22,905 bases of DNA from a virus. Both the position numbers and the translations under genes were made by a program. The notes below the pieces were generated by a model. That model ran no database searches. It was not told the DNA's origin and saw only the letters and a list, made by a program, of their open reading frames with translations. Positions 9,673 to 22,905 of this stretch are shown in pieces. Where the stretch lies: the IMG/VR virus record IMGVR_UViG_3300009159_000341, positions 1 through 22,905 of that record; one strand, 5' to 3'. The number at the start of each line of letters is the position of its first letter. Within the stretch, counting starts at the first letter, position 1.

Positions 9673-10059
9673 GTGCGAGCTCAAGAGTTTATTGCCGAAG
9701 ACGCTGGCAAGCGTGGCGGAACAAGAGCTGCGGCCAACCACGAATTTGAAAGAGCACATCCCGGTCTAGTGGGTCCAGGCGGCAAGGGAGATGTGTATTG
9801 GGGTCGTTATTACGATCACTATCGTGTGGCCACATTGGCCGGCATGGATCTAGATGAATTAGAAAATTCAAAAGACATAAATTTCTTTGGCAATTTGCCT
9901 ATTTTTAGTGCCTACACAGAACATGATCGTAAAAAACTCATAGCAATCATGAAAAAACTAGGTATGAAACCCAAAGATTTTATCAGCCACGGCAGTCACG
10001 AACCTGACTACGTGAATCACTCAAGCCCTGTCACAGCCTTCAAAGGCTACAAAAAATAA
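9673..10059 (+). CDS. Capsid-targeted internal protein, FKGY family, copy 1
   Basis: A 128-residue protein starting at a GTG two bases after the previous stop. The start is fixed by the N-terminus MRAQEFIAEDA, which closely matches the T4 capsid-targeting sequence (MKTYQEFIAEA) that sends internal proteins into the prohead. IAE followed by a residue would be cut by the gp21 protease. The middle has a Tyr/Arg-rich helix (YYDHYRVATLAGMD). The end, NHSSPVTAFKGYKK, is a tail shared with the two copies at 10937 and 11329. No catalytic motif is visible. It is probably packaged in the head and perhaps injected, as are T4 internal proteins I-III. Targeting is inferred from the motif. Confidence 0.7.
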   Translation: MRAQEFIAEDAGKRGGTRAAANHEFERAHPGLVGPGGKGDVYWGRYYDHYRVATLAGMDLDELENSKDINFFGNLPIFSAYTEHDRKKLIAIMKKLGMKPKDFISHGSHEPDYVNHSSPVTAFKGYKK

Positions 10060-10061
10060 TC

Positions 10062-10940
10062 ATGTGCATAATCCTTGCCAAATACTTTGACGGTATTGGA
10101 TGGACCGGTGCCAAAAATCGCGACCGTAACTATACTCCTGCATTGGATTTTATCGAAGACAACAGCCACGGTATTCAACGCATGATGATGCATGATCAAG
10201 TGACCGGCTACAAAGAAGGTGTAAACAACCTTGGCATCAGTATATTAAACACCAGTCTAGATGTGTATGATGACGAAAGAGAAGTTGAAGCTGGAACTAC
10301 AGAATCCAGCCCCGACGGGAAAATTATTGCCGAAGCATTGTTACAAAACACTGTGCAGGATGCAGTCAAGTTACTGATCAAAAGAAAATTAGGCGGTTGT
10401 ACTATTGTTTTTGATCAAAATGAACTGTATCTAATAGAAGCTAGTGACTGGGATGGCAAAAAACCATTTGAACATATTGTTAAAAAAATCCCTAACTCCG
10501 AAACAGTAACAAGAACTAACCATGGCATTTGGTTACCCGAAGCAGGATATCAACGCCGACCCAACAACCGGAGTGAAACTCTAAGCAGAATTAGCAGTGA
10601 AACCCGCCTTGCACTGGCCGAAGCAGTGGTGGCCACTGCCGAAGAACCCGAAGATCTAGTGGATGGCATGTGTCAAGTGTACATAAACGATCCTCAACTA
10701 AATATAATGCGGACCAGCACAGAAGGTAAAAAAATGCGTACTACTAGTCAGCAATTGTGTGTTCCTAGAGAACGAACACTATATTGTCGCCCAGTTAGCA
10801 GTCATTTGCAGTTTGATTTCTGGGGGCTAAATCGACCAGATACTGATGTTTGGGTAGAGATATTGAGTAATCGAGCATTGTGGCAGAATGTCAAAGGTGA
10901 TCCTCCGTTTGGGCACATGAAATTGAAAGATGTAGAATGA
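10062..10940 (+). CDS. N-terminal-cysteine Ntn-hydrolase-like amidase
   Basis: A 292-residue protein resembling the cysteine Ntn-hydrolases (penicillin V acylase / acyltransferase C45 / NRDE-like group), which cleave linear amides using the N-terminal Cys freed by Met removal. Seen here: Cys2 directly after Met; NRDR at residues 19-22 (an Arg/Asp pair expected in the active site); the G-V-N-N-L-G turn at 53-58; LIEASDW at 124-130; and TNH at 152-154, matching the Asn-His block of C45-like enzymes. No signal peptide is present, as the Cys2 mechanism without a propeptide requires. The gene sits between two capsid-targeted paralogues and its stop overlaps the next start (ATGA). The substrate is unknown; acyl-amides such as N-acyl signals or peptides are possible. 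NRDE/TANGO2-like proteins are the main alternative. Confidence 0.7.
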   Translation: MCIILAKYFDGIGWTGAKNRDRNYTPALDFIEDNSHGIQRMMMHDQVTGYKEGVNNLGISILNTSLDVYDDEREVEAGTTESSPDGKIIAEALLQNTVQDAVKLLIKRKLGGCTIVFDQNELYLIEASDWDGKKPFEHIVKKIPNSETVTRTNHGIWLPEAGYQRRPNNRSETLSRISSETRLALAEAVVATAEEPEDLVDGMCQVYINDPQLNIMRTSTEGKKMRTTSQQLCVPRERTLYCRPVSSHLQFDFWGLNRPDTDVWVEILSNRALWQNVKGDPPFGHMKLKDVE

Positions 10941-11332
10941 GAGCAAAAGAATTTGTAGCAGAAGCAAAATTTGGTAGTGCCCAGGACATTCCTGCGGATT
11001 TTAAAAAACTTCCAAAAGCTCATGCATCGGCTATGAAAGGTATGATCAGCATGCCCGACATTTCAATGACCAAACAAGGCGGCAGTCCTTATACACAATG
11101 GCGTTTCGGTATTGCCATGGCAGGTGCTCCAGATTATCCTACAGAACCCGCTGGTGCGTTTGCCGGAGATCCGCTGTTGGCAACATACAGTGATGCTGAT
11201 TTGGACATAATCAATGCCGCGGCCAAATCAGTAGGAGCCGGAGAAGTCAAAAAATTAACTGACAATCGTAGTACCGAAGCCGAGCATGTAAACAAAACAA
11301 GTCCAGTAACAGGATTTAAAGGTTACAAATGA
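10937..11332 (+). CDS. Capsid-targeted internal protein, FKGY family, copy 2
   Basis: A 131-residue paralogue of the 9673 and 11329 products. The N-terminus MRAKEFVAEAK matches the capsid-targeting pattern, with VAE-A as the expected protease cut. A shared core motif is YTQWRFGIAMA at residues ~54-64, comparable to YQIYRLGVAMA in the next copy. The C-terminus NKTSPVTGFKGYK is the shared tail. The start overlaps the stop of the Ntn-hydrolase gene in an ATGA junction, and its own stop overlaps the next start the same way, so the three genes form a coupled unit. Function unknown; packaging into the head is inferred. Confidence 0.72.
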   Translation: MRAKEFVAEAKFGSAQDIPADFKKLPKAHASAMKGMISMPDISMTKQGGSPYTQWRFGIAMAGAPDYPTEPAGAFAGDPLLATYSDADLDIINAAAKSVGAGEVKKLTDNRSTEAEHVNKTSPVTGFKGYK

Positions 11333-11706
11333 GAGCCCGTGAGTTTATAACTGAAGAAGCAAAATTGCCCCCAGAGCAGGCAGATCCTATGAATCATGTG
11401 TTTGTATTACCCGGGGTGACATCTAGTGATCCGTATCAAATATATCGACTGGGAGTTGCAATGGCTCGTGCTAGAAGTGATGCTGGGCCCGACAAAATTC
11501 CCAACATGCCTGAATGGTCAGCAGAAGCTGCATTTGGCGAAGATGCTGTGATTGCCGGATTTGATGATAGTGTTGGACCAATTATTGATCAAGCATTAAA
11601 AATGGCCGGCTTGCCTGCTAAAAAAATACAAATAAGCACACCAAACAGCCTAGAACCTGCATCAATAAACCATACTAGTCCTGTAAAGCAATTTAAAGGT
11701 TATTGA
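11329..11706 (+). CDS. Capsid-targeted internal protein, FKGY family, copy 3
   Basis: A 125-residue third paralogue. It starts MRAREFITEEA (capsid-targeting pattern with ITE-E), carries the shared YQIYRLGVAMARA block at residues ~44-56, an acidic helix region (FDDSVGPIIDQALKMAGLP), and the tail NHTSPVKQFKGY. It begins in an ATGA overlap with copy 2. The TTTAAAGGTTACA at the end of copy 2 supplies an AAAGG ribosome-binding site for this gene. Together with copies 1 and 2 it suggests tandem duplication followed by strong divergence, with only the two ends conserved: the targeting end and the FKGY end. Confidence 0.72.
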   Translation: MRAREFITEEAKLPPEQADPMNHVFVLPGVTSSDPYQIYRLGVAMARARSDAGPDKIPNMPEWSAEAAFGEDAVIAGFDDSVGPIIDQALKMAGLPAKKIQISTPNSLEPASINHTSPVKQFKGY

Positions 11707-11748: not shown

Positions 11749-12564
11749 ATGAAATTACTTTTATCCGTGATTCTAGCACTAGTTGGTTTCCCTAGTCATG
11801 CCTGGGATCAACGAGCCCCACTCTCTCCACAAGCCTGTGCCATACACTCACCATATGGTTTTGCACAAACAGCGAGACCTGCTGTTCCTATTTGCCGTGA
11901 AGCATACTTTGTGGCCTATGATGCACCTGTAAAGATTCCAGTGTATGTTGCTTATACTCTAACTCCTCCCAATGCATTAGGTTGCGTAGCACGTACCAAT
12001 GCATTTGTTGCTGATCAAAGTGTTCCAGGCGGTGCCAGACCTGATGACTATTCGGGCACAGGATACGACAAAGGACATGCCGCTCCGGATGGCGACTTGA
12101 GTTGGAGCCAACAAGTAGAATACGAATCATTCCTAATGACCAACATGTACCCACAACACGGAAGTCTCAATCGTGGCATTTGGAAACTGTTAGAAACAGC
12201 AGTACGTGGTTGGACAGTACAACTTAATCAACCCTACACCATTTATGTTGGTGCAGTATATGATGGTAGTGACCCCACAATTGGTAATGGTGTTATTGTA
12301 CCACATGGTTACTACAAGATTGTGATCAACAATGCCACAAAACAAATTGCAGGTTGGGTATTCCCACACACTAAACCATATGTTAATCTAGGTAACGACT
12401 TGACTAAATTTCGTTTGCCAGTAAGCCAAATACAAACGCAGGCCAAGGTGCATTTTGCATTTCCCCCAGGAGCTATTGAAATCAACCCAGGTCAAGAGTG
12501 GCCTGTGGACTTTGGTGCATTGACCAATGCCAAGCGAGCCAAATGTGGAAAAACCGCAGAATAA
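11749..12564 (+). CDS. Secreted DNA/RNA non-specific endonuclease (NUC/EndoG family)
   Basis: A 271-residue His-Me-finger nuclease that cuts DNA and RNA with a bound Mg ion. Residues 1-18 form a signal peptide (Lys, a hydrophobic stretch LLLSVILALVGF, cleavage after SHA), so the product should reach the periplasm or exterior. The active-site block is YDKGHAAP at 106-113: H110 corresponds to the general base of the DRGH motif, with Lys in place of Arg. TNMYPQ (131-136) and LNRGIW (140-145) follow; N141 is the expected metal ligand and E149, eight residues later, the supporting Glu as in the Serratia enzyme. The four cysteines in the mature chain may form disulfides. It has a dedicated late promoter. 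Possible roles: digesting released or competing DNA, or acting with lysis. Confidence 0.85.
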   Translation: MKLLLSVILALVGFPSHAWDQRAPLSPQACAIHSPYGFAQTARPAVPICREAYFVAYDAPVKIPVYVAYTLTPPNALGCVARTNAFVADQSVPGGARPDDYSGTGYDKGHAAPDGDLSWSQQVEYESFLMTNMYPQHGSLNRGIWKLLETAVRGWTVQLNQPYTIYVGAVYDGSDPTIGNGVIVPHGYYKIVINNATKQIAGWVFPHTKPYVNLGNDLTKFRLPVSQIQTQAKVHFAFPPGAIEINPGQEWPVDFGALTNAKRAKCGKTAE

Positions 12565-12631: not shown

Positions 12632-13762
12632 ATGAGCAATTTCTATTGTGCCGCTCCTTGGCGTGGGCTTCACATCAATCCCAAGGGCAATGTCAAAACT
12701 TGTTGTGCCGGCAACCCTAACATGCTGGGCAGTCTTGAATCAAATACAATAGAAGAGATATTAAATTCTGATCTCATGGGCGAAATACGACAAAGTTTAG
12801 CACAAGGTCAACCACACAAAGAGTATTGTAGTAATTGCATAAAAGCAGAAAGACTTGGCGGCGGGTCAGAACGTAATTGGCATAATAATACAAATCCCGA
12901 CTTTGATTATACCACAGCCGGCGATCAATATCATTATCCTGTTATTTTTGATGTGCGTTGGAATACCACGTGCAATTTAAGTTGCAATTATTGTAGTCCT
13001 ATTTGTAGTAGCAAATGGGCCAGCATTAAAAATATCCCAGTTAAATCAGGCACACGACCTTATTACGAACAAGTATGTGATTTTTTAGAACAACATCGTG
13101 ATCACATACATGAAGTAGCACTGGTCGGCGGGGAACCTTTGTTGCTACCAGAAAATGAACGTCTATTAGATGTTATTCCAGAGTCAGTTATCGTTACACT
13201 AATTACAAATATGAGCGTAGACTTAGAAAAAAATAAAATATTTAAAAAGTTAAGTCAACGTAAACGAGTCGGATGGAGCATGAGCTTTGACAATATTGAA
13301 CAACGTTTTGAATATGTTAGATATGGAGCCAACTGGAACTTGCTACAACAAAATCTACAAACTGTTAAATACCTTATGCAAAACAATGGTCATTGGGGAG
13401 GAATACACGCAGTTTATAACATTTATAATGCCACTAGACTTTGTGAATTTAGACAATTTGCCGAAGATAATAAAATAACAGTATTATGGCAACATTTATT
13501 TCAACCTGAATATCTAGACACAGGGTTACATGGCACTAAAATAGCCAAGTTGGCTATAGATGAAATACACAAATTTTATCAATTAGAAATTGCTACAGAT
13601 GTTGAACGTGTGTTTTTTGATCAGGCCTTAACAAAATATAACCAAGCTCAAGATAATCCAGCAATGCAAACAAAATTTCAAAAACACATACGTGATATTG
13701 AAACTGTTTATCATCCTGATAAGGCAGGTGAGTTTGCACGTTTATGGCCGGAGTTGATATGA
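12632..13762 (+). CDS. Radical SAM protein with N-terminal twitch/SPASM-like cysteines, copy 1
   Basis: A 376-residue radical S-adenosylmethionine enzyme. The cluster motif is CNLSCNYC (C114, C118, C121), with SAM-contact GGEP at 166-169. Before the core lies an auxiliary Cys region: C6 in YCAAPW, C24-C25, C66 and C69, with GSLESNTIEEILNS between, the pattern of twitch/SPASM domains that hold a second iron-sulfur cluster, here N-terminal instead of C-terminal. It is a clear paralogue of the 20532 gene (shared FDVRW or IDVRW before the motif, SSKWA after it, EYVRYG/EYIRHG, ANW/GNW). The stop overlaps the gp17 ATGA, so it is tied to the packaging motor gene. Substrate unknown; relatives modify peptides or sugars. 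Confidence 0.85.
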   Translation: MSNFYCAAPWRGLHINPKGNVKTCCAGNPNMLGSLESNTIEEILNSDLMGEIRQSLAQGQPHKEYCSNCIKAERLGGGSERNWHNNTNPDFDYTTAGDQYHYPVIFDVRWNTTCNLSCNYCSPICSSKWASIKNIPVKSGTRPYYEQVCDFLEQHRDHIHEVALVGGEPLLLPENERLLDVIPESVIVTLITNMSVDLEKNKIFKKLSQRKRVGWSMSFDNIEQRFEYVRYGANWNLLQQNLQTVKYLMQNNGHWGGIHAVYNIYNATRLCEFRQFAEDNKITVLWQHLFQPEYLDTGLHGTKIAKLAIDEIHKFYQLEIATDVERVFFDQALTKYNQAQDNPAMQTKFQKHIRDIETVYHPDKAGEFARLWPELI

Positions 13763-15372: not shown

Positions 15373-17379
15373 ATGGCAACAACGAATTCTATCTCACAAC
15401 AATTGCTGGACCTGCTGGCAACCCGTAATTTCCATCCCGAAATGCTGGATCAAATGGGACGTCCTTGTGATGCCGACGATGCCAAAACATTCACATTTGA
15501 ATACACAGCCGGTTCGGGCAAAAACTACGGTACCATGGTTATTGTACTGGACTCAGACAACGAAATGAAAGTCATGTACGGGGACAATTTGGGTCGTACC
15601 ATGGAAGGTGACGACAAATCAGAATTCTTTGATTTTTTACAACATCTAAATCGTAAAGCCACACAGAATCGTTGGACACATAGTACGCAAGATATCAGCC
15701 AACTCAAGCACACCATGCAAGGGTTGGCAGCCATACAAGAAGGCCTGTTTGAAGGCTACTATGGCAACCGCAAAATCAGTTATGCTGGAGAACCCACTCA
15801 AGCAAGATTAATGATCAAGCACAGCCAGCCCTTGGGAGAAGGTGATGCTAGATATCGTTATGTGGAAAGCATTTATATTGAAACTGCTGATAATGAGCGT
15901 TTCAAACTTGGCTTCAAAAGCCTAAGTGGTGCCAGAGCCATGTTGGAACATGTGCGTCAAGGTGGCAAACCCTATGACATACGTGGTAACCACATTACAG
16001 AAACTGTAACAGAAATTGCTGTGTTGAGTAGATTCAATAGAGCGAGTGCAAACCGCATCTTAGAAGGTGTCACACAAGAGCTGGTGACAGAAGCACAAGC
16101 CTACTATCAATCTCTGCGTGAGAACCTAAAACACATGGCTTCGGGTCGTGGGTACAAAACATATTTTGAATCGTGGCATCCGGCTACCATTAGCGAACAA
16201 GATGGTGTTGTTGACAACATCAAAACGCTGTTCATTGAACAGAGTATCGATAGCCGTATCGAAGCGGCATTACCACTGCTGGCCAAGATTCAGCAAAGAG
16301 GAAACGAAATGAAAGAAGCACAAATATTTGAAAACTGGATCGACAGTTTGAGCGAGGGCACATGGAATTTGCCAGAAACTCCCGAACAGTTGGACAAACT
16401 GCACACACTCATGGCCAGTGAATTAATTGTTGGACCTGATGCTACCAATGCAACAGAACAACTGTATGACTTGGTTGGCGACGATGAGTTGTTTGATCGA
16501 CTACACACTCTTGCAGATCAAGATCCCAGAGCCAATGCCTGGAACGATACAGAAGTCATGCAACGTCTACAAGAATTAGGGATCGAAGCACCTGCTCCTG
16601 CCGTACCACAACAACCTGCACCAGATGCCGCGGCAGCACCTGCTCCGGTAGCACCACAACAGCCTGTGGCAGAATCATGGCATGGTATCACAGATCCTGC
16701 ATTACTTAAAGATTTAATTGGCGATGCACAAGTAATGGACTATGATGAGTTTTATAACGAACACAGTCGTTTGCTCGATGATCCAAAAGGATTCTGGAGC
16801 AATTATCACAATCAAGTAGATGAACAAACGGTAACATTTGAAGACATCAACAGCATACGCAACCTAGCAGGCTTGCCTGTGGCAGAAAGTCGCTTGATGG
16901 ATAGCACAGGCGAAACGCTACAACACATCATGGGACGTTTCAAACACGAAGTCCGAAACTTTGAAGATGGTGGCGAAATGCACGATGACTTGTATCATGC
17001 CCTGTACGACTACTACAGTGACAACGGCGAAATGCCGTATGGTACACAAAAAGCTCGCGATGGCGATCCTTATGAATGGGTAGCAGATCGTTTTGCCAGC
17101 GAGTTGGGAATCAATGAAACCCTCATCTCCCCAATAGCCATGCCAGTTACCACAGAAGCCAGCACCTGTAACATGACCACAGAAGGTGAATACTGTCCTG
17201 AACACGGCTTGGCCGAGTGCGGAATGGGCATGCCAACAGGTATCATGGGAGAAGAGTTGGACAAACCACCACATGATGATGCTATAAATTACAATGCCGC
17301 TGTTACAGGTTCATATTATGAATCTAAGGAAGGCGATGCTGTTCTGGCAAGAATAAAATCACTGGCTTTGCTCAAATGA
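15373..17379 (+). CDS. Large putative virion protein with Cys-rich C-terminus
   Basis: A 668-residue protein of unknown function. The N-terminal ~230 residues look folded and mixed alpha/beta (FEYTAGSGKNYGTMVIVLD; RYVESIYIETADNERFKLGF). Residues ~410-440 are a Pro/Ala/Gln-rich linker. The C-terminal part has NLAGLPVAES, then a cysteine segment CNMTTEGEYCPEHGLAECG near residues 597-615, perhaps metal-binding, and ends in SYYESKEGDAVLARIKSLA. Similar tails recur in structural proteins of marine T4-like phages (from memory). The many short (L/I)xE sites could be prohead-protease cuts. It is late-expressed by its CTAAATA and lies downstream of gp17. A capsid-interior or tail role is inferred. Confidence 0.6.
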   Translation: MATTNSISQQLLDLLATRNFHPEMLDQMGRPCDADDAKTFTFEYTAGSGKNYGTMVIVLDSDNEMKVMYGDNLGRTMEGDDKSEFFDFLQHLNRKATQNRWTHSTQDISQLKHTMQGLAAIQEGLFEGYYGNRKISYAGEPTQARLMIKHSQPLGEGDARYRYVESIYIETADNERFKLGFKSLSGARAMLEHVRQGGKPYDIRGNHITETVTEIAVLSRFNRASANRILEGVTQELVTEAQAYYQSLRENLKHMASGRGYKTYFESWHPATISEQDGVVDNIKTLFIEQSIDSRIEAALPLLAKIQQRGNEMKEAQIFENWIDSLSEGTWNLPETPEQLDKLHTLMASELIVGPDATNATEQLYDLVGDDELFDRLHTLADQDPRANAWNDTEVMQRLQELGIEAPAPAVPQQPAPDAAAAPAPVAPQQPVAESWHGITDPALLKDLIGDAQVMDYDEFYNEHSRLLDDPKGFWSNYHNQVDEQTVTFEDINSIRNLAGLPVAESRLMDSTGETLQHIMGRFKHEVRNFEDGGEMHDDLYHALYDYYSDNGEMPYGTQKARDGDPYEWVADRFASELGINETLISPIAMPVTTEASTCNMTTEGEYCPEHGLAECGMGMPTGIMGEELDKPPHDDAINYNAAVTGSYYESKEGDAVLARIKSLALLK

Positions 17380-17380
17380 G

Positions 17381-17387
17381 ATAAATA
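17381..17387 (+). promoter_or_regulatory. Putative late promoter ATAAATA upstream of gp32
   Basis: ATAAATA immediately after the 15373 stop codon. Together with the sigma-70 promoter a few bases on, it could keep gp32 and its cassette active late. A second match, CTAAATAA, lies at 17468-17475. Confidence 0.5.
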
Positions 17388-17390
17388 CAC

Positions 17391-17419
17391 TTGACATGTA
17401 GACAAAAAGCGCATATACT
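17391..17419 (+). promoter_or_regulatory. Strong host sigma-70 promoter for gp32
   Basis: A perfect TTGACA box (17391-17396), 17-base spacer, and TATACT (17414-17419; five of six bases match TATAAT). Transcription would start near 17426, giving a leader of about 90 bases. This is the only near-consensus host promoter I see in the window, and it marks the change from late structural genes to replication genes. Confidence 0.8.
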
Positions 17420-17440
17420 ACTACAGTGTTTGCGTTTTTT
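17404..17440 (+). terminator. Terminator-like hairpin overlapping the gp32 promoter
   Basis: AAAAAGCGCA (17404-17413) pairs with TGCGTTTTTT (17431-17440) over ten positions, one of them G-U, with the T-tract in the right arm. The 17-base loop is long for an intrinsic terminator. It would end transcripts from the 15373 gene, and the -10 box lies in the loop. Confidence 0.5.
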
Positions 17441-17518
17441 CACTTGTGTCACAGGCAACAACACAATCTAAATAATTAGATAGGCATTTACATAGGCAAC
17501 TTATTAAGGAGAAAAACT

Positions 17519-18502
17519 ATGGCATCGTTACAAGAAATTAGAGCACGTTTACAGGCATCAGAGAACAAAGGTGGAGCATCCACTTCAAGTTACGACAATG
17601 CAATTTTTCCGTTCTGGAGTTTAGAAGACGGGCAATCGGCAACATTACGATTTATCCCAGACGGCAACACAAAAAATACTTTCTTTTGGCAAGAACGAGC
17701 AATGATTCGTTTACCATTCAATGGTATCAAAGGAGAGATGGATTCCAAACAAGTTATGATACGTGTACCTTGTGTGGAGATGTGGCAAGAAGCCTGCCCA
17801 ATCTTGGCAGAAGTACGCACCTGGTTCAAGGACAAGAGTCTTGAGGACATGGGTCGTAAGTACTGGAAAAAGCGTGATTACATTTTCCAGGGCTTTGTAC
17901 GTGAGAATCCTCTCAATGAGGACAAGACACCAGAAAATCCAATTCGTAGATTCATCATTGGTCCACAAATTTTTACAACTATCAAAGGAGCCTTGATGGA
18001 TCCTGAGTTGGAAGAATTACCAACAGACTACTTGCGTGGCCTGGACTTCCGTATCACCAAAGGAAGCAAAGGCGGTTTTGCTGACTACAACTCCAGCAAA
18101 TGGGCTCGTAAAGAGTCAGCACTTACTGAAGTGGAACAGGCCGCAATTGAACAATATGGTCTTGTGGACTTGAGTACATTGTTGCCCAAGAAGCCCACAG
18201 ACGTTGAGCTCAAGGTCATCAAAGAGATGTTTGAAGCATCAGTAGATGGACAACCTTACGACACAGAGCGTTGGGGTCAATACTTCCGTCCTGCTGGTGT
18301 ATCAGCACCTGCTGGTGCCAGTGTTGATGCAGAAGAATCTGCACCGGTTAAGCCTGCACTCAAGGTAGCCGCACCAACACCTGCTGTTACAAGCGACTTT
18401 GATGAAGATGAGGCTCCGGCCGCATCAGCACCAGTATCGGCCAAGCCAGCACAAAAAGCTGAAGACATTTTGGCAATGATTCGAGCTAGACAGCAGAAGT
18501 AA
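17519..18502 (+). CDS. gp32: Single-stranded DNA-binding protein gp32
   Basis: Replication and recombination protein that coats single-stranded DNA and works with UvsX, encoded downstream. Its 327 residues compare with 301 in T4. The N-terminus MASLQEIRARLQ is the cooperative-binding segment; FPFWSLEDGQSATLRFIPDG begins the OB-fold core, with MIRLPFNG and WKKRDYIFQGFV further on. The acidic segment DFDEDEA and the final ILAMIRARQ match the protein-interaction tail. The T4 zinc site (one His, three Cys) is only partly matched: I see C85 and C93 in the expected region (VPCVEMWQEACPIL), without the third Cys or a nearby His, so zinc may be absent. AAGGAG at 17506-17511 precedes the ATG. The ~90-base leader holds two ATAGGCA repeats (17480 and 17492), possible autoregulatory sites. 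Confidence 0.92.
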   Translation: MASLQEIRARLQASENKGGASTSSYDNAIFPFWSLEDGQSATLRFIPDGNTKNTFFWQERAMIRLPFNGIKGEMDSKQVMIRVPCVEMWQEACPILAEVRTWFKDKSLEDMGRKYWKKRDYIFQGFVRENPLNEDKTPENPIRRFIIGPQIFTTIKGALMDPELEELPTDYLRGLDFRITKGSKGGFADYNSSKWARKESALTEVEQAAIEQYGLVDLSTLLPKKPTDVELKVIKEMFEASVDGQPYDTERWGQYFRPAGVSAPAGASVDAEESAPVKPALKVAAPTPAVTSDFDEDEAPAASAPVSAKPAQKAEDILAMIRARQQK

Positions 18503-19122
18503 TGCGAACAGCTCTGGACACAGAGCTGTTTCCAAACATGTGTGAAGTGGTAGAAATACCACTTCACCATCAATGGGTTTATCTAATTCAGAAAAACGGA
18601 AACAGCAGTTTGCGGATTCAGCAGTCAAGAGATAATCTTGCTGTGTTTACTAATGACGAAATCTCGGTGCTTGATTATGTAGATGTCTATATACGCAATC
18701 CTCGAGCTAGATACGTCAGTGGAGTAAACACCTACTTGCAACATCTTCAACGCGATCACCCTGAATTGGATTTTTCTACCACATTGTGGTTTGCTAAACG
18801 ATATAAATTTTTAAACACACACTATTTGCCACAGTTCCATTGGTTGGCAAATCTTTCTCGTTACATTCGTAGCGATGCAAAAATACGCATCAGAGACTTT
18901 CGAAATTTTGGTAACATAACTGATTTTAAATTTCGAGCAGAAATAACTCCCCCAACAAAAGACTTTGTAACTGAGTTACTAAAAAATAATCATGACATTG
19001 AACTATGGTTGTATCTAGACCAAATTCTATTGGATCTAGCAGGTCAAGAATTTACATGGACTGAACTCTTAGCCCACTATCAACGCAATCATAAAAATAT
19101 TATACAACATGTATTGCCCTAG
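18502..19122 (+). CDS. Sulfotransferase-like protein
   Basis: A 206-residue protein resembling PAPS-dependent sulfotransferases. WVYLIQKNGNSSL (residues 25-37) matches the 5'-phosphosulfate loop of the type usually written PK-x-G-T/S-S, and IRNPRARYVSGVNTYL (64-79) matches the 3'-phosphate motif RxPxxRxxSxY. The rest is helical and rich in Tyr, His and Phe. It starts in a TAATG overlap with gp32, so it is coupled to it, and overlaps the next gene by 14 bases. Two strong hairpins cover the first ~22 codons. An alternative start is Met13 (18538). The product may sulfate a glycan or small molecule. The chain is shorter than most cellular relatives and the substrate is unknown. Confidence 0.65.
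   Translation: MRTALDTELFPNMCEVVEIPLHHQWVYLIQKNGNSSLRIQQSRDNLAVFTNDEISVLDYVDVYIRNPRARYVSGVNTYLQHLQRDHPELDFSTTLWFAKRYKFLNTHYLPQFHWLANLSRYIRSDAKIRIRDFRNFGNITDFKFRAEITPPTKDFVTELLKNNHDIELWLYLDQILLDLAGQEFTWTELLAHYQRNHKNIIQHVLP
18507..18567 (+). other. Two perfect tandem RNA hairpins after gp32
   Basis: First: AACAGCTCTG (18507-18516), loop GACA, CAGAGCTGTT (18521-18530), ten perfect pairs. Second: GTGAAGTGGTA (18542-18552), loop GAAA (a GNRA tetraloop), TACCACTTCAC (18557-18567), eleven perfect pairs. They start four bases after the gp32 stop and lie inside the next gene's first codons. No long T-tract follows. Likely roles: protecting the 3' end of gp32 mRNA, or damping expression of the downstream cassette. 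Confidence 0.85.
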
Positions 19123-19993
19123 ATTAGATCATTTTGTCCGCTTCAATTCTGACGGTTCTGTGAGCCGTTGTGGACACATGGTCGAAGCACCACACTTTGA
19201 TTCCTTAGAACAAATGGAAAACAGCAACTGGTTACATGAAATTAAAAAACAGTTTGCACAAGATCAGTGGCCCGTAGAATGTGTACGATGCCAGGAAGTT
19301 GAAATTACCGGGACAGACAGCATAAGAGTATATGCTATCAAACTAGATCAAAATGAAACACAATCAGATTATTTACAAGTTGGTGGAGTGTTAGACAATG
19401 TGTGCAATGCCGCTTGTCAGACTTGTAGTCCCGATTGTAGTACCAGGATTGGTTCGTTATACGGAAAAACTTTTCCCATTGTAAACAACAGTAAACAATT
19501 TCAAAGTTTGCCACAACAACGTATTCGACACTTAGACATCAATGGTGGTGAGCCTAGTTACAGTAAAAATTACAAAAAGATACTGGCTAACTTGCCGCCA
19601 AACCTCAAAACACTTAGACTTAACACAAATTGCAACATAGTATTATCAGAATTAACCGAGATAGTCAATCGTGGTATTGAAGTCACAGTTACAGTGAGTT
19701 GTGATGGAATTGGCGACATGCATGAATTCATGCGTTGGCCCATTAAATGGGATACATTCTATAAAAACTTGATGACGTATAAGTCCATGCCTGTTGCACT
19801 AAATTTATGGACTACTGTGAGCATTCTAAATGTAAAAGATTTGCCCAACATACAGGCATTTGCCCAGGAACACAACATTGACCATAGTTATGCCTATCTA
19901 AAACATCCAGCGGTGCTAGATGTCAATAATGATGATCAAGAATCAATCAACACATACATACAGAAACAAAAGCAATTGAGAGGCATGGTATGA
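19109..19993 (+). CDS. Radical SAM protein with N-terminal auxiliary cysteines, copy 2
   Basis: A 294-residue radical SAM enzyme, shorter and more diverged than the other two here. Core motif CNAACQTC (C99, C103, C106) and NGGEP at 145-149; TNCNI and VTVTVSCDGIG provide later core strands. The N-terminal auxiliary cysteines are C3 (YCPRL), C21 (RCGHM), C58 and C61 (ECVRC), the same order as in copies 1 and 3. Starts inside the sulfotransferase gene (14-base overlap) and ends in an ATGA overlap with the dehydrogenase gene. No C-terminal SPASM domain follows. Substrate unknown; the neighbours suggest a multi-step modification pathway. Confidence 0.82.
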   Translation: MYCPRLDHFVRFNSDGSVSRCGHMVEAPHFDSLEQMENSNWLHEIKKQFAQDQWPVECVRCQEVEITGTDSIRVYAIKLDQNETQSDYLQVGGVLDNVCNAACQTCSPDCSTRIGSLYGKTFPIVNNSKQFQSLPQQRIRHLDINGGEPSYSKNYKKILANLPPNLKTLRLNTNCNIVLSELTEIVNRGIEVTVTVSCDGIGDMHEFMRWPIKWDTFYKNLMTYKSMPVALNLWTTVSILNVKDLPNIQAFAQEHNIDHSYAYLKHPAVLDVNNDDQESINTYIQKQKQLRGMV

Positions 19994-20535
19994 AAATAGC
20001 AATCACCGGTGACACAGCTGGAATAGGGCAGGCTCTAGCAAAATGCTATGCTGACCGTGGGCACAACATTGTTGGACTCAGTCGACGCAACGGGCACAAC
20101 ATACGTGTGATACCAAAAATTGCAGACCTAGTAGAACCTTGCGATATGTTTGTTAACAATGCACAAGCAGGATATGCTCAAACTGAATTGCTATTCGAAA
20201 TAGCAAAACGTTGGAAAGGTACAGGTAAAAAAATTATAGTAATTAGTACCATAATGACACAAGATCCCGTGAGTGTGTTGCCTGGATTAGAAATGGACGC
20301 TTACCGTATTCAAAAAACAACTCTTGAAGAAGCAGTCAAACAACTACGCTATCGTGGTCTGGGAATTTCTATTACTATAGTGCGTCCGGGTAACATAGCC
20401 ACCAGTCCAGATAAAACTGTGCCGCCGGCCGCTGATGTCAATACATGGGCTGGGTTTTTAATGCAAACACTAGACACAGCACATGCTAATGGGTTGGCAA
20501 TTCCTGATATTTCTTTAGGCCCAGCATACCAATGA
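19990..20535 (+). CDS. Short-chain dehydrogenase/reductase
   Basis: A 181-residue Rossmann-fold NAD(P)-dependent oxidoreductase. Visible motifs: the cofactor loop TGDTAGIG (6-13), SRR at 31-33, which favours NADP, NNAQ (56-59) in place of NNAG, a Ser in VISTIM (S86), the catalytic pair Y105-x3-K109 in AYRIQK, and RPGNI (132-136). It is complete in catalytic residues but shorter than the usual ~250, lacking part of the helices between strands and the C-terminal substrate lid. ATGA overlaps at both ends tie it to the radical SAM genes. Likely reduces or oxidises an intermediate made by its neighbours; this is inference. Confidence 0.85.
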   Translation: MKIAITGDTAGIGQALAKCYADRGHNIVGLSRRNGHNIRVIPKIADLVEPCDMFVNNAQAGYAQTELLFEIAKRWKGTGKKIIVISTIMTQDPVSVLPGLEMDAYRIQKTTLEEAVKQLRYRGLGISITIVRPGNIATSPDKTVPPAADVNTWAGFLMQTLDTAHANGLAIPDISLGPAYQ

Positions 20536-21683
20536 CCCCCAAGGATATGTTAACCAATCCATATTTTTGTCCAATGCCTTGGACTGGCTTGATGTATAAT
20601 TTTAATGGTTCAGTTAAAAATTGTATTCGCAGTGCCGGTCCGTTGGGAAATATTAAAGATCAACCTATTGAACAAATTTTACTCGAAAACAATCAAGTTA
20701 GACAACAACAAATTACAACTCAACAGCCCGTAGAAACATGCCATACTTGTTATGATCTAGAGCACGGTAAAAAAGGATTTGACATTATTAGTGATCGAAT
20801 TTTTTATATACGTGAATTAAAAAATACACCCGTTGACACATACCAAGTTGGTAACTTTGATTTAAAAACAATAGATGTGCGTTGGACCAATTTGTGTAAT
20901 TTTGCCTGTGTGTATTGTGGTCCAGAGTTTAGTAGCAAGTGGGCCGATGAATTAAAAATTCATCCCAGTGTGCCCGATGCTCAACAACTTGATGAGTTTA
21001 AAAATTACATTTATGATCATGCAGGACAACTCAAACATGTGTATCTAGCAGGTGGTGAACCTTTGTTGATGAAAGAAAATTTGGTACTGCTAGAGAAATT
21101 AGATCCTGGGGTAAACATCAGGATAAACACTAACCTAAGCAAAGTTGATACTCGAGTATTTGATGAAGTTTGCAAATTTCAAAATGTGCATTGGACTGTG
21201 AGTGTAGAAACCATAACTGAAGAATTTGAATACATTCGTCACGGCGGCAACTGGACAGATTTTTTGGACAACCTATCAGTCATTAAACAATTGGGTCACA
21301 AGATATCGTTTAATATGTTGCATTTTTTGTTAAATTACAATTCAATTTTTGATTGTGTTGATTTTTTAACAGCTCAAGGATTCCATAATAATAGTTTTGT
21401 AATCGGGGCACTTTTAAAGCCTGATTACCTAAATATTAGACATTTGCCTGAAACTGTGTTAAACTCTGTAAAGAACATATTACAAGATAAAATCAACCAA
21501 ATGCCCGGGTATCTTCTTGAAGATGGTTATCGAAATATGTTACGATATGTTGATATTCCGTTTGATAAAAATATCAAATTATCAATTGATAAATTATCAA
21601 AACTAGATCAACGCCGGGGTGTAGATAGCAAGACAATTTTTAAAGATTTTTATAAGGACATAAATCATGGGAAAACCATTTGA
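20532..21683 (+). CDS. Radical SAM protein with N-terminal twitch/SPASM-like cysteines, copy 3
   Basis: A 383-residue radical SAM protein, close paralogue of the 12632 gene. Auxiliary Cys: C13 in YFCPMPW, C31, C70 and C73 (CHTC), with GPLGNIKDQPIEQIL between. Core: CNFACVYC (C122, C126, C129), SSKWA directly after, AGGEPLL at 173-179, and RINTNLS. The C-terminal third is AT-rich and helical, with no second cysteine cluster. It starts in an ATGA overlap with the dehydrogenase stop, and its last 17 bases overlap uvsX, which uses AAGGA inside this gene as its ribosome-binding site. Substrate unknown. Confidence 0.85.
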   Translation: MTPKDMLTNPYFCPMPWTGLMYNFNGSVKNCIRSAGPLGNIKDQPIEQILLENNQVRQQQITTQQPVETCHTCYDLEHGKKGFDIISDRIFYIRELKNTPVDTYQVGNFDLKTIDVRWTNLCNFACVYCGPEFSSKWADELKIHPSVPDAQQLDEFKNYIYDHAGQLKHVYLAGGEPLLMKENLVLLEKLDPGVNIRINTNLSKVDTRVFDEVCKFQNVHWTVSVETITEEFEYIRHGGNWTDFLDNLSVIKQLGHKISFNMLHFLLNYNSIFDCVDFLTAQGFHNNSFVIGALLKPDYLNIRHLPETVLNSVKNILQDKINQMPGYLLEDGYRNMLRYVDIPFDKNIKLSIDKLSKLDQRRGVDSKTIFKDFYKDINHGKTI

Positions 21684-22725
21684 CGTAAGCAAGTTCCGCA
21701 AGGAAATCACCAAAAGTATTGACGGGTTGTCAATTGGCTTTAACGATCCAACAGATTGGATTAGCACAGGCAACTTTGCTTTGAACTATCTCATCTCAGG
21801 AGACTTTAATCGTGGTATTCCACTGGGCAAGGTGACTGTGTTTGCTGGTGAATCTGGTGCAGGTAAAAGTTATATCTGTTCAGGCAACATTATCAAGAAC
21901 GCACAAGATCAAGGTATCTATGTGGTGTTAGTTGATAGCGAAAATGCTCTTGACGAAGATTGGCTCAAAGCACTTGGGGTTGACACAAGCGAAAGCAAGT
22001 TACTCAAGTTGAGCATGAGCATGATCGACGATGTGGCCAAGACTATATCAACGTTTATGAGCGACTACAAAGCATTGCCAGATGGCGAGCGTCCCAAGGT
22101 CATGTTTGTGATTGACTCGTTAGGTATGTTGTTGACACCCACAGACGTTAATCAGTTTGACGCAGGTGAAATGAAAGGTGACTTGGGTCGTAAACCCAAA
22201 GCACTCACAGCACTTGTTCGCAATTGCGTAAACATGTTTGGTAGTTACAATGTGGGATTGGTTTGTACCAACCACACATACGCAAGCCAGGACATGTTTG
22301 ATCCGGATGACAAGATTTCAGGTGGACAAGGCTTTATCTATGCGTCAAGTATTGTTGTGGCCATGAAGAAACTCAAGCTCAAAGAAGACGAAGATGGCAA
22401 TAAAATTACAGACGTTACTGGTATCCGTGCCGCTTGTAAAGTAATGAAGACACGTTACTCTAAACCGTTTGAAGGTGTGCAAGTTAAGATTCCTTACGTA
22501 ACAGGAATGAGTCCGTATTCAGGGCTTACTGACTTGGCCGAGAAGAAGGGCATGCTCAAGAAAGACGGCAATCGTCTGGCGTTTACCACTAGTGATGGCG
22601 AAATTATTAAACAGTTCCGCAAAGCATGGGAAGCCAATGAAGGCGGTTGCTTGGACAAAGTTATGGAAGACTTTGGAAAACAGAAATCAGAGGTAAGTAT
22701 CGTTGAGGAGACCAACGATGAGTGA
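21667..22725 (+). CDS. uvsX: RecA-like recombinase UvsX
   Basis: Strand-exchange ATPase that forms filaments on gp32-coated single-stranded DNA and drives recombination-dependent replication. 352 residues (T4: 391). Walker A GESGAGKS at 61-68; catalytic Glu E92 in VDSENALD; Walker B VMFVIDS with D150; and the later GQGFIYASSIVVAMKK stretch (about residues 220-235), which corresponds to the RecA core segment after the L2 region. All key residues are intact. The ATG at 21667 lies 8 bases after AAGGA (21654-21658), inside the 3' end of the radical SAM gene. The next gene begins 8 bases before its stop. In T4 this gene is not beside gp32, so here the two DNA-binding partners flank the metabolic cassette. 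Confidence 0.95.
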   Translation: MGKPFDVSKFRKEITKSIDGLSIGFNDPTDWISTGNFALNYLISGDFNRGIPLGKVTVFAGESGAGKSYICSGNIIKNAQDQGIYVVLVDSENALDEDWLKALGVDTSESKLLKLSMSMIDDVAKTISTFMSDYKALPDGERPKVMFVIDSLGMLLTPTDVNQFDAGEMKGDLGRKPKALTALVRNCVNMFGSYNVGLVCTNHTYASQDMFDPDDKISGGQGFIYASSIVVAMKKLKLKEDEDGNKITDVTGIRAACKVMKTRYSKPFEGVQVKIPYVTGMSPYSGLTDLAEKKGMLKKDGNRLAFTTSDGEIIKQFRKAWEANEGGCLDKVMEDFGKQKSEVSIVEETNDE

Positions 22726-22905
22726 AGCAATAGCAAGTGAAATTTGGAACGAACTCAAGCGATACGTAAACACCGTGGATCGTGCAGAAGCGGCAGAAAC
22801 TATTGTAAGCGTACTAATCGATCACGACAGTGATGTAGAGGATATTCGCGATGCATTTAAAGGCGACAGCGATATCAAACGTGCTTTGACTGCATATCTC
22901 GACAA
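22718..22905 (+). CDS. Small conserved protein, 3' end cut by window edge
   Basis: An open frame from ATG 22718 to the window end, 62 codons visible, starting MSEAIASEIWNELKRYVNTV. GAGGAG at 22705-22710 is a strong ribosome-binding site 7 bases away, inside uvsX, and the start overlaps the uvsX stop by 8 bases. The product is acidic and helical (VLIDHDSDVEDIRDAF; KGDSDIKRALTAYLD). Similar small proteins lie beside replication genes in marine T4-like phages (from memory), without a known role. Confidence 0.75.
   Translation, partial: MSEAIASEIWNELKRYVNTVDRAEAAETIVSVLIDHDSDVEDIRDAFKGDSDIKRALTAYLD

Follow-up and report, generated by a model that had tools for sequence, protein, structure and literature searches.

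A cassette of four overlapping enzyme-type genes lies between the gp32-like gene and uvsX in IMG/VR virus record IMGVR_UViG_3300009159_000341, which comes from a T4-related phage. The whole record of 22,905 bases was analyzed and is referred to as the window. In order, the cassette encodes a putative 3'-phosphoadenosine-5'-phosphosulfate (PAPS)-dependent sulfotransferase (ST, open reading frame ORF1), a predicted radical S-adenosylmethionine (rSAM) enzyme (rA), a short-chain dehydrogenase/reductase (SDR), and a second predicted rSAM enzyme (rB). The features of the locus are as follows (aa, amino acids; AF2, AlphaFold; PSB and PB, phosphosulfate- and phosphate-binding).

17391..17419, + strand: sigma-70-like promoter TTGACA-N17-TATACT before gp32, 11/12 consensus positions, pattern match only
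17519..18502, + strand: gp32-like single-stranded DNA binding protein, phrog_1192 E=1.8e-66, left border of the cargo site
18502..19122, + strand: ST, putative PAPS-dependent sulfotransferase, 206 aa, from AF2 fold and 59-member alignment
18592..18612, + strand: 5'-PSB-like loop KNGNSSL of ST; K31, N32, G33, and S35 conserved at ≥90% (59 sequences)
18694..18723, + strand: 3'-PB-like motif RNPRARYVSG of ST; R65, R70, and G74 invariant, P67 and S73 ≥90% (59 sequences)
19109..19993, + strand: rA, predicted N-terminal-twitch rSAM enzyme, 294 aa, NF033640 147.7 bits, AF2 fold
19403..19426, + strand: CX3CX2C of rA (CNAACQTC), C99-x3-C103-x2-C106, preceded by twitch C3, C21, C58, and C61
19990..20535, + strand: SDR, short Rossmann oxidoreductase, 181 aa, with TGDTAGIG, NNAQ, YRIQK, and RPGN
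20532..21683, + strand: rB, second predicted N-terminal-twitch rSAM enzyme, 383 aa, NF033640 227 bits, Pfam Radical_SAM 62 bits
20895..20918, + strand: CX3CX2C of rB (CNFACVYC), C122-x3-C126-x2-C129, preceded by twitch C13, C31, C70, and C73
21667..22725, + strand: uvsX recombinase, phrog_97 E=3.5e-67, right border of the cargo site

The stop codon TAA of gp32 occupies 18500-18502 and the ATG of ORF1 begins at 18502. ORF1 (18502-19122) and rA (19109-19993) overlap by 14 nucleotides, an ATGA at 19990 is common to rA and SDR and another at 20532 to SDR and rB, and the uvsX start at 21667 lies 17 nucleotides inside the end of rB at 21683, leaving zero intergenic gaps from gp32 to uvsX. The four overlapping genes described at this position by an earlier sequence-only reading were thus borne out to the base in every coordinate and overlap. 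Because no terminator-like site was found on the + strand at 17300-22905 and a near-consensus promoter precedes gp32, gp32-ST-rA-SDR-rB-uvsX likely forms one transcription unit, probably driven as a whole from the promoter at 17391..17419. The cassette is not an assembly chimera, since two IMG/VR contigs from other samples (L024 and L003) carry the same genes with 100% protein identity over the shared stretches. The closest cultured match of gp17 is in a PA5oct-type jumbo phage (53%) and that of UvsX in Sinorhizobium phage Phosso (67%), also a jumbo phage. The cassette carriers are uncultured T4-related phages of lake and ocean whose nearest cultured kin are jumbo phages.

Predicted enzymes of the cassette

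The catalytic motifs that the sequence-only reading had called intact, namely PAPS-type loops in ST, CX3CX2C and GGEP in both rSAM proteins, and the SDR motifs, were all located, and the catalytic residues vary little or not at all across 49-61 divergent homologues of the cassette proteins. In ST, the conserved residues match the motif pattern of PAPS sulfotransferases (5'-PSB K31-x3-S35 and 3'-PB RxPxxRxxS), and the 3'-PB-like motif agrees with RNPYxRxxS of Sulfotransfer_2 proteins. The AF2 model of ST has a predicted local distance difference test (pLDDT) score of 90. When it was compared with PDB structures, the top 30 rows were all sulfotransferases (best Z 6.1) and the first unrelated row had Z 3.5; with a Foldseek E of only 0.098, the fold support is moderate. 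The best fold matches are glycan sulfotransferases, i.e., heparan sulfate 3-O-sulfotransferases and NDST. ST shares with these proteins and Sulfotransfer_2 (PF03567) the P-loop PAPS fold and RxPxxRxxS, and its HYxPQ resembles their HWxxQ, but it differs in its length of 206 aa, an identity of ~10%, and the lack of a Pfam match above cut-off. The window ST was not matched by PF03567, which gave weak matches in 6/59 relatives (best E 0.011). An hhalign comparison with five bacterial Sulfotransfer_2 proteins covered only the 3'-PB (RxPxxRxxS), with a probability of 40% and an E of 3e-4, and the ST profile had no meaningful sequence match in PDB. The model and motifs support ORF1 as a sulfotransferase-like protein with a PAPS-sulfotransferase-like fold that is not assignable to a Pfam family. 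No ST relatives were found in cultured phages, nor, at the sensitivity used, in 84,980 bacterial and archaeal genomes. In long carrier records, ST is single-copy and confined to the gp32-uvsX slot. The role of phage sulfotransferases is reported to remain unclear (PMC10580990).

Both rSAM proteins carry four cysteines N-terminal to the CX3CX2C, consistent with an auxiliary cluster. All seven cysteines of rA are invariant (52 sequences), as are the motif and twitch cysteines of rB (49 sequences) and the GGEP at residues 146-149 of rA and 174-177 of rB. Profile alignment of rA with rB (hhalign 99.5%, E=4e-23) identifies the two as paralogues. NF033640 (N_Twi_rSAM) has the same N-terminal twitch and rSAM core; rB is above its cut-off of 170 bits at 227 bits, while rA, at 147.7 bits, is below it and was not filed in this family. 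The assignment of rB as a radical SAM enzyme is supported by its motifs and its Pfam and NF033640 scores. That of rA is supported by its paralogy with rB and by its predicted fold, as the top PDB rows of its AF2 model (pLDDT 93.4) were exclusively radical SAM enzymes, with E down to 8e-8 and Z up to 12.4. The only relatives of rB in cultured phages are rSAM matches of 22-25% in large Vibrio phages.

SDR scores 26.9 bits against Pfam Epimerase (cut-off 20.9), its motif residues are invariant or conserved at ≥90%, and its PDB matches are SDR chains. Its sequence carries the TGxxxGxG, NNAG-like, and YxxxK motifs of the SDR family; it departs from the class in having N-A-Q where N-A-G is typical and in its length of 181 aa versus ~250 aa for classical members. 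The sequence-only reading counted four genes, which is right for the window, but many relatives hold one more between rA and SDR. This fifth gene, absent from the window, is present in about 40% of loci (50 genes). In its product, H101, H186, and R198 are invariant and the D position of HxD..H..R varies (28 sequences); weak Asp_Arg_Hydrox matches were obtained in 2/28, and no meaningful PDB match was found. By its resemblance to such enzymes, it is a putative 2-oxoglutarate (2OG)-Fe(II) oxygenase.

The gp32-uvsX junction is an exchangeable cargo hotspot

The cassette was found in >120 contigs. Where the relevant flank is present or the order can be judged, gp32 lies upstream of ST in 122/122 loci, rA downstream of ST in 128/128, SDR before rB in 137/137, and uvsX after rB in 123/124. 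Since the loci were retrieved through their similarity to ST or rB, these counts describe placement rather than prevalence; a few contigs fetched by two queries were counted twice. The gene order is not due to chance. A search of other viral genomes for the same order, as proposed with the sequence-only reading, was thus strongly favorable, and the grounds on which that reading was to be abandoned (scattered homologues, or missing rSAM or sulfotransferase folds) were examined and did not overturn it. All four genes are under purifying selection, with dN/dS (nonsynonymous to synonymous substitution rates) against relatives of 0.11-0.15 for ST, 0.05-0.07 for rA, 0.10-0.14 for SDR, and 0.07-0.10 for rB, where some of the underlying dS values are near saturation. 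The view of the cassette as one conserved, coupled enzyme module is supported.

Correlations between the pairwise distances of the four proteins are weak (r=0.15-0.48), which indicates that parts of the cassette have been exchanged while the order was kept. Seven loci have two SDR genes along with a divergent rB, and five have an SGNH-hydrolase-like gene separating rB from uvsX. Variant cassettes in five contigs (L046-L049 and L058) have an unrelated small protein in place of ST and a 25-27% divergent rSAM in place of rA, with SDR and rB remaining at 64-69%.

In a sample chosen by uvsX instead, and so unbiased by the cassette queries, 59 contigs show both gp32 and uvsX. Nine carry the full cassette, two only ST-rA, 17 have an empty slot with gp32 adjoining uvsX, and 31 hold other cargo; no cassette element was found singly. 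The slot is also empty in the cultured phages Phosso, Atu_ph07, CBB, and Vibrio 2.275.O, and since gp32 and uvsX are adjacent in these jumbo relatives, the empty state is probably ancestral. On a UvsX tree built by a quick method, cassette presence is unclustered, requiring 12 changes for 12 carriers against a shuffled mean of 11.3, and identical UvsX proteins accompany different cargo states (L229/L230 and L203/L204). As uvsX adjoins the slot and could recombine as well, the tree indicates decoupling and not a rate of exchange. The gp32-uvsX junction is an exchangeable hotspot of which the cassette is one allele: its location between gp32 and uvsX was correctly described by the sequence-only reading, but its presence is not fixed, as the slot is empty or otherwise filled in relatives.

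Among the other cargo of the slot are GDSL/SGNH hydrolases, a desaturase, a hexapeptide acyltransferase, an Asp/Asn-hydroxylase, and an AMP-binding ligase, together with several unknown families. An unknown family of 260-360 aa (L179:6213-6995, L198:6083-6988, L237:1327-2142, L269:13517-14608, and L270:4694-5773) is the most frequent of the other cargo and also occurs within rSAM gene clusters of long records. Shared DNA was expected at the junctions of unrelated cargo, but just two other cargo genes share the HGKTI/YGKTI overlap with uvsX, so that we claim no mechanism of recombination.

Hyperplastic regions and gene cassettes have been described in T4-like phages, including 2OG dioxygenase genes next to uvsX/uvsY in the cyanophages Syn9 and P-SSM4 (PMC2984593), and a hypervariable host-recognition island with rSAM cassettes is known from pelagimyophages (PMC7029224). 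As in these regions, exchangeable host-related genes break the core synteny and rSAM cassettes are gained or lost; unlike them, the present locus has a precise site, gp32-uvsX, and an ordered ST-rA-(2OG)-SDR-rB block. The T4-like environmental phage TARA_ERS488813_N000010 carries 12 rSAM genes, treated there as iron-sulfur (Fe-S) protein consumers (PMC5332604), and resembles the long cassette records in its many rSAM genes per genome (9-15 in the latter). In contrast to the records analyzed here, no sulfotransferase is mentioned and no gp32-uvsX module was found described in that study. In the full-text literature searched, from which preprints and most subscription journals were outside the scope, no description of the module or the slot was found. 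Hotspots and rSAM-rich phages are already known. Radical SAM genes are abundant in uncultured T4-like phages. The present set of four to five genes is compact, strictly ordered, and maintained by selection, and sister phages with an empty slot form a natural control, so that its function may be tested by expressing the four genes in a laboratory host. The junction, which belongs to the core synteny, serves as a site where cargo is rapidly exchanged and may be useful for mining host-manipulation genes.

Possible function of the cassette

We propose, with a probability of about 0.5, that the cassette is an exchangeable tailoring module, co-transcribed with gp32 and uvsX, which probably decorates a glycan or glycan precursor. 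The glycan part taken alone is more tentative, at somewhat less than even odds. It is suggested by the fold neighbors of ST, the heparan sulfate sulfotransferases, and by the enzyme types in the slot and in other rSAM clusters. The N-twitch rSAM model matched 9-15 regions in each of five long records with the cassette, and 0, 2, and 8 regions in three without it. Two rSAM clusters in long records follow tail-fibre-like genes, and the genes around them, read by eye, include glycosyltransferases, an SGNH hydrolase, and a NodU-type carbamoyltransferase. Among the roles listed in the sequence-only reading, modification of surface or virion glycans is the best guess, through guilt by association only.

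In the proposed scheme, the cassette genes would be translated with gp32 and uvsX during replication. Using SAM-derived radicals and an auxiliary [4Fe-4S] twitch cluster, rA and rB may act on C-H positions in one hydroxylated substrate, oxidizing or rearranging them, SDR may carry out an oxidation or a reduction linked to NAD(P), and in some phages the putative 2OG oxygenase may add a hydroxyl. ST would sulfate a hydroxyl or amine with PAPS from the host, giving a sulfated end product. The likeliest substrate would be a glycan or activated sugar, as host surface polysaccharide or as virion or receptor decoration, and the cassette may serve to compete with other phages or to evade recognition, a purpose that would account for the rapid cargo turnover. 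A bolder version, which we regard as rather doubtful, is a new biosynthetic pathway of phages. In it, the two twitch rSAM enzymes together with the SDR, the 2OG oxygenase, and ST would make, in the course of infection, a sugar or a similar metabolite that is sulfated and radically rearranged. The pathway would be exchanged between phages as one allele of a cargo locus at a specific site in the replication core, corresponding in phages to the switching of O-antigen gene clusters.

Several observations weigh against the tailoring proposal. The glycan association comes from gene neighborhood only, and the sequences are uncultured fragments. ST had no match above cut-off in the profile libraries, including the curated cut-offs of Pfam, and its fold score is moderate (best Z 6.1, Foldseek E 0.098). 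The N-twitch rSAM relatives in bacteria are distant (23-33%) and lie in mixed gene neighborhoods, where the 70 neighbors of rB relatives include 11 matches to rSAM and 3 to glycosyltransferases; function is not transferable from relatives so distant. No strong candidate for a PAPS-synthesis gene was found in the cassette carriers, so PAPS must be supplied by the host. Weak partial P-loop matches to adenosine-5'-phosphosulfate (APS) kinase in 3/12 records were not accepted as PAPS synthesis.

The four genes may instead be independent auxiliary genes that accumulated in a permissive slot and share no pathway, as the weak distance correlation with its swapped parts and the two contigs with ST-rA but without SDR-rB would allow. 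This is unlikely, as the order is kept through swaps without exception and no lone element occurs in the uvsX-chosen sample, and the replacement of parts with retention of their roles favors a functional set. Quite unlikely is a maturation system like those of ribosomally synthesized and post-translationally modified peptides, in which the twitch rSAM enzymes would install crosslinks or epimerizations in a ribosomal or virion peptide, to be completed by the remaining enzymes. The peptide maturases SkfB and SuiB are among the closest PDB relatives of rA in sequence and fold, but the neighboring fold matches MoaA, BlsE, NifB, and viperin are non-peptide enzymes, the recurrent companion genes look carbohydrate- or lipid-type, and no precursor-peptide gene lies inside the cassette, whose overlapping genes leave no space for one.

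The position of the cassette in the replication-recombination core could also reflect hypermodification of DNA or nucleotides against host nucleases, for which the genes would be held beside gp32 and uvsX; some phage pathways for thymidine hypermodification include rSAM enzymes. However, the thymidylate-synthase-family hydroxymethylase (PF00303) was absent from 8 long related records, which are partial, in a search whose control worked, and many sister phages have the slot empty or filled with unrelated enzymes. A PF18723 search was uninformative, as no control gave a match. The DNA/nucleotide modification suggested by the sequence-only reading is accordingly unsupported and we consider it improbable. 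More improbable still is a viperin-like system against competitors, acting through chain-terminating nucleotides. Such a role would suit the fast exchange at the cargo site and the weak pVip matches of rB (38.5 bits, 2.2e-10), but rB scores far more against NF033640 (227 bits), and pVip spans only the generic rSAM core, leaving the four-cysteine N-terminal twitch outside the match. PADLOC likewise returned only generic viperin-core matches for the cassette, which was not assigned to the prokaryotic viperins.

Other genes of the window and related loci

Outside the cassette, the window carries a third N-twitch rSAM gene.

12632..13762, + strand: third predicted N-twitch rSAM gene, NF033640 220.6 bits (above cut-off), overlapping the gp17 start

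The same arrangement of an rSAM gene overlapping the gp17 start occurs in L089, L125, L136, and L144. In many loci, the stretch ~260 bases downstream of uvsX holds another rSAM gene and a fused cytidylyltransferase-cupin gene (Pfam; a cluster of 66 loci), e.g., L006:5193-6482 and L017:10691-11554, a region that falls just past the end of the window. The cytidylyltransferase-cupin gene speaks for the proposed tailoring role of the cassette.

Three small proteins of the window (9673-10059, 10937-11332, and 11329-11706) have a common N-terminal MRAxEF(I/V)xE stretch, which we take to be like the capsid-targeting, prohead-protease (I/L)xE head of T4 internal proteins, making them candidates for head-packaged, injected proteins. 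The protein encoded at 10062-10940 begins MCIILAKYFDGIGWTGAKNRDRNY and is perhaps an Ntn-hydrolase, with only a sub-threshold AAT match. A DNA/RNA non-specific endonuclease (PF01223, 3e-39) is encoded at 11749-12564, and its N-terminal stretch resembles a signal peptide.

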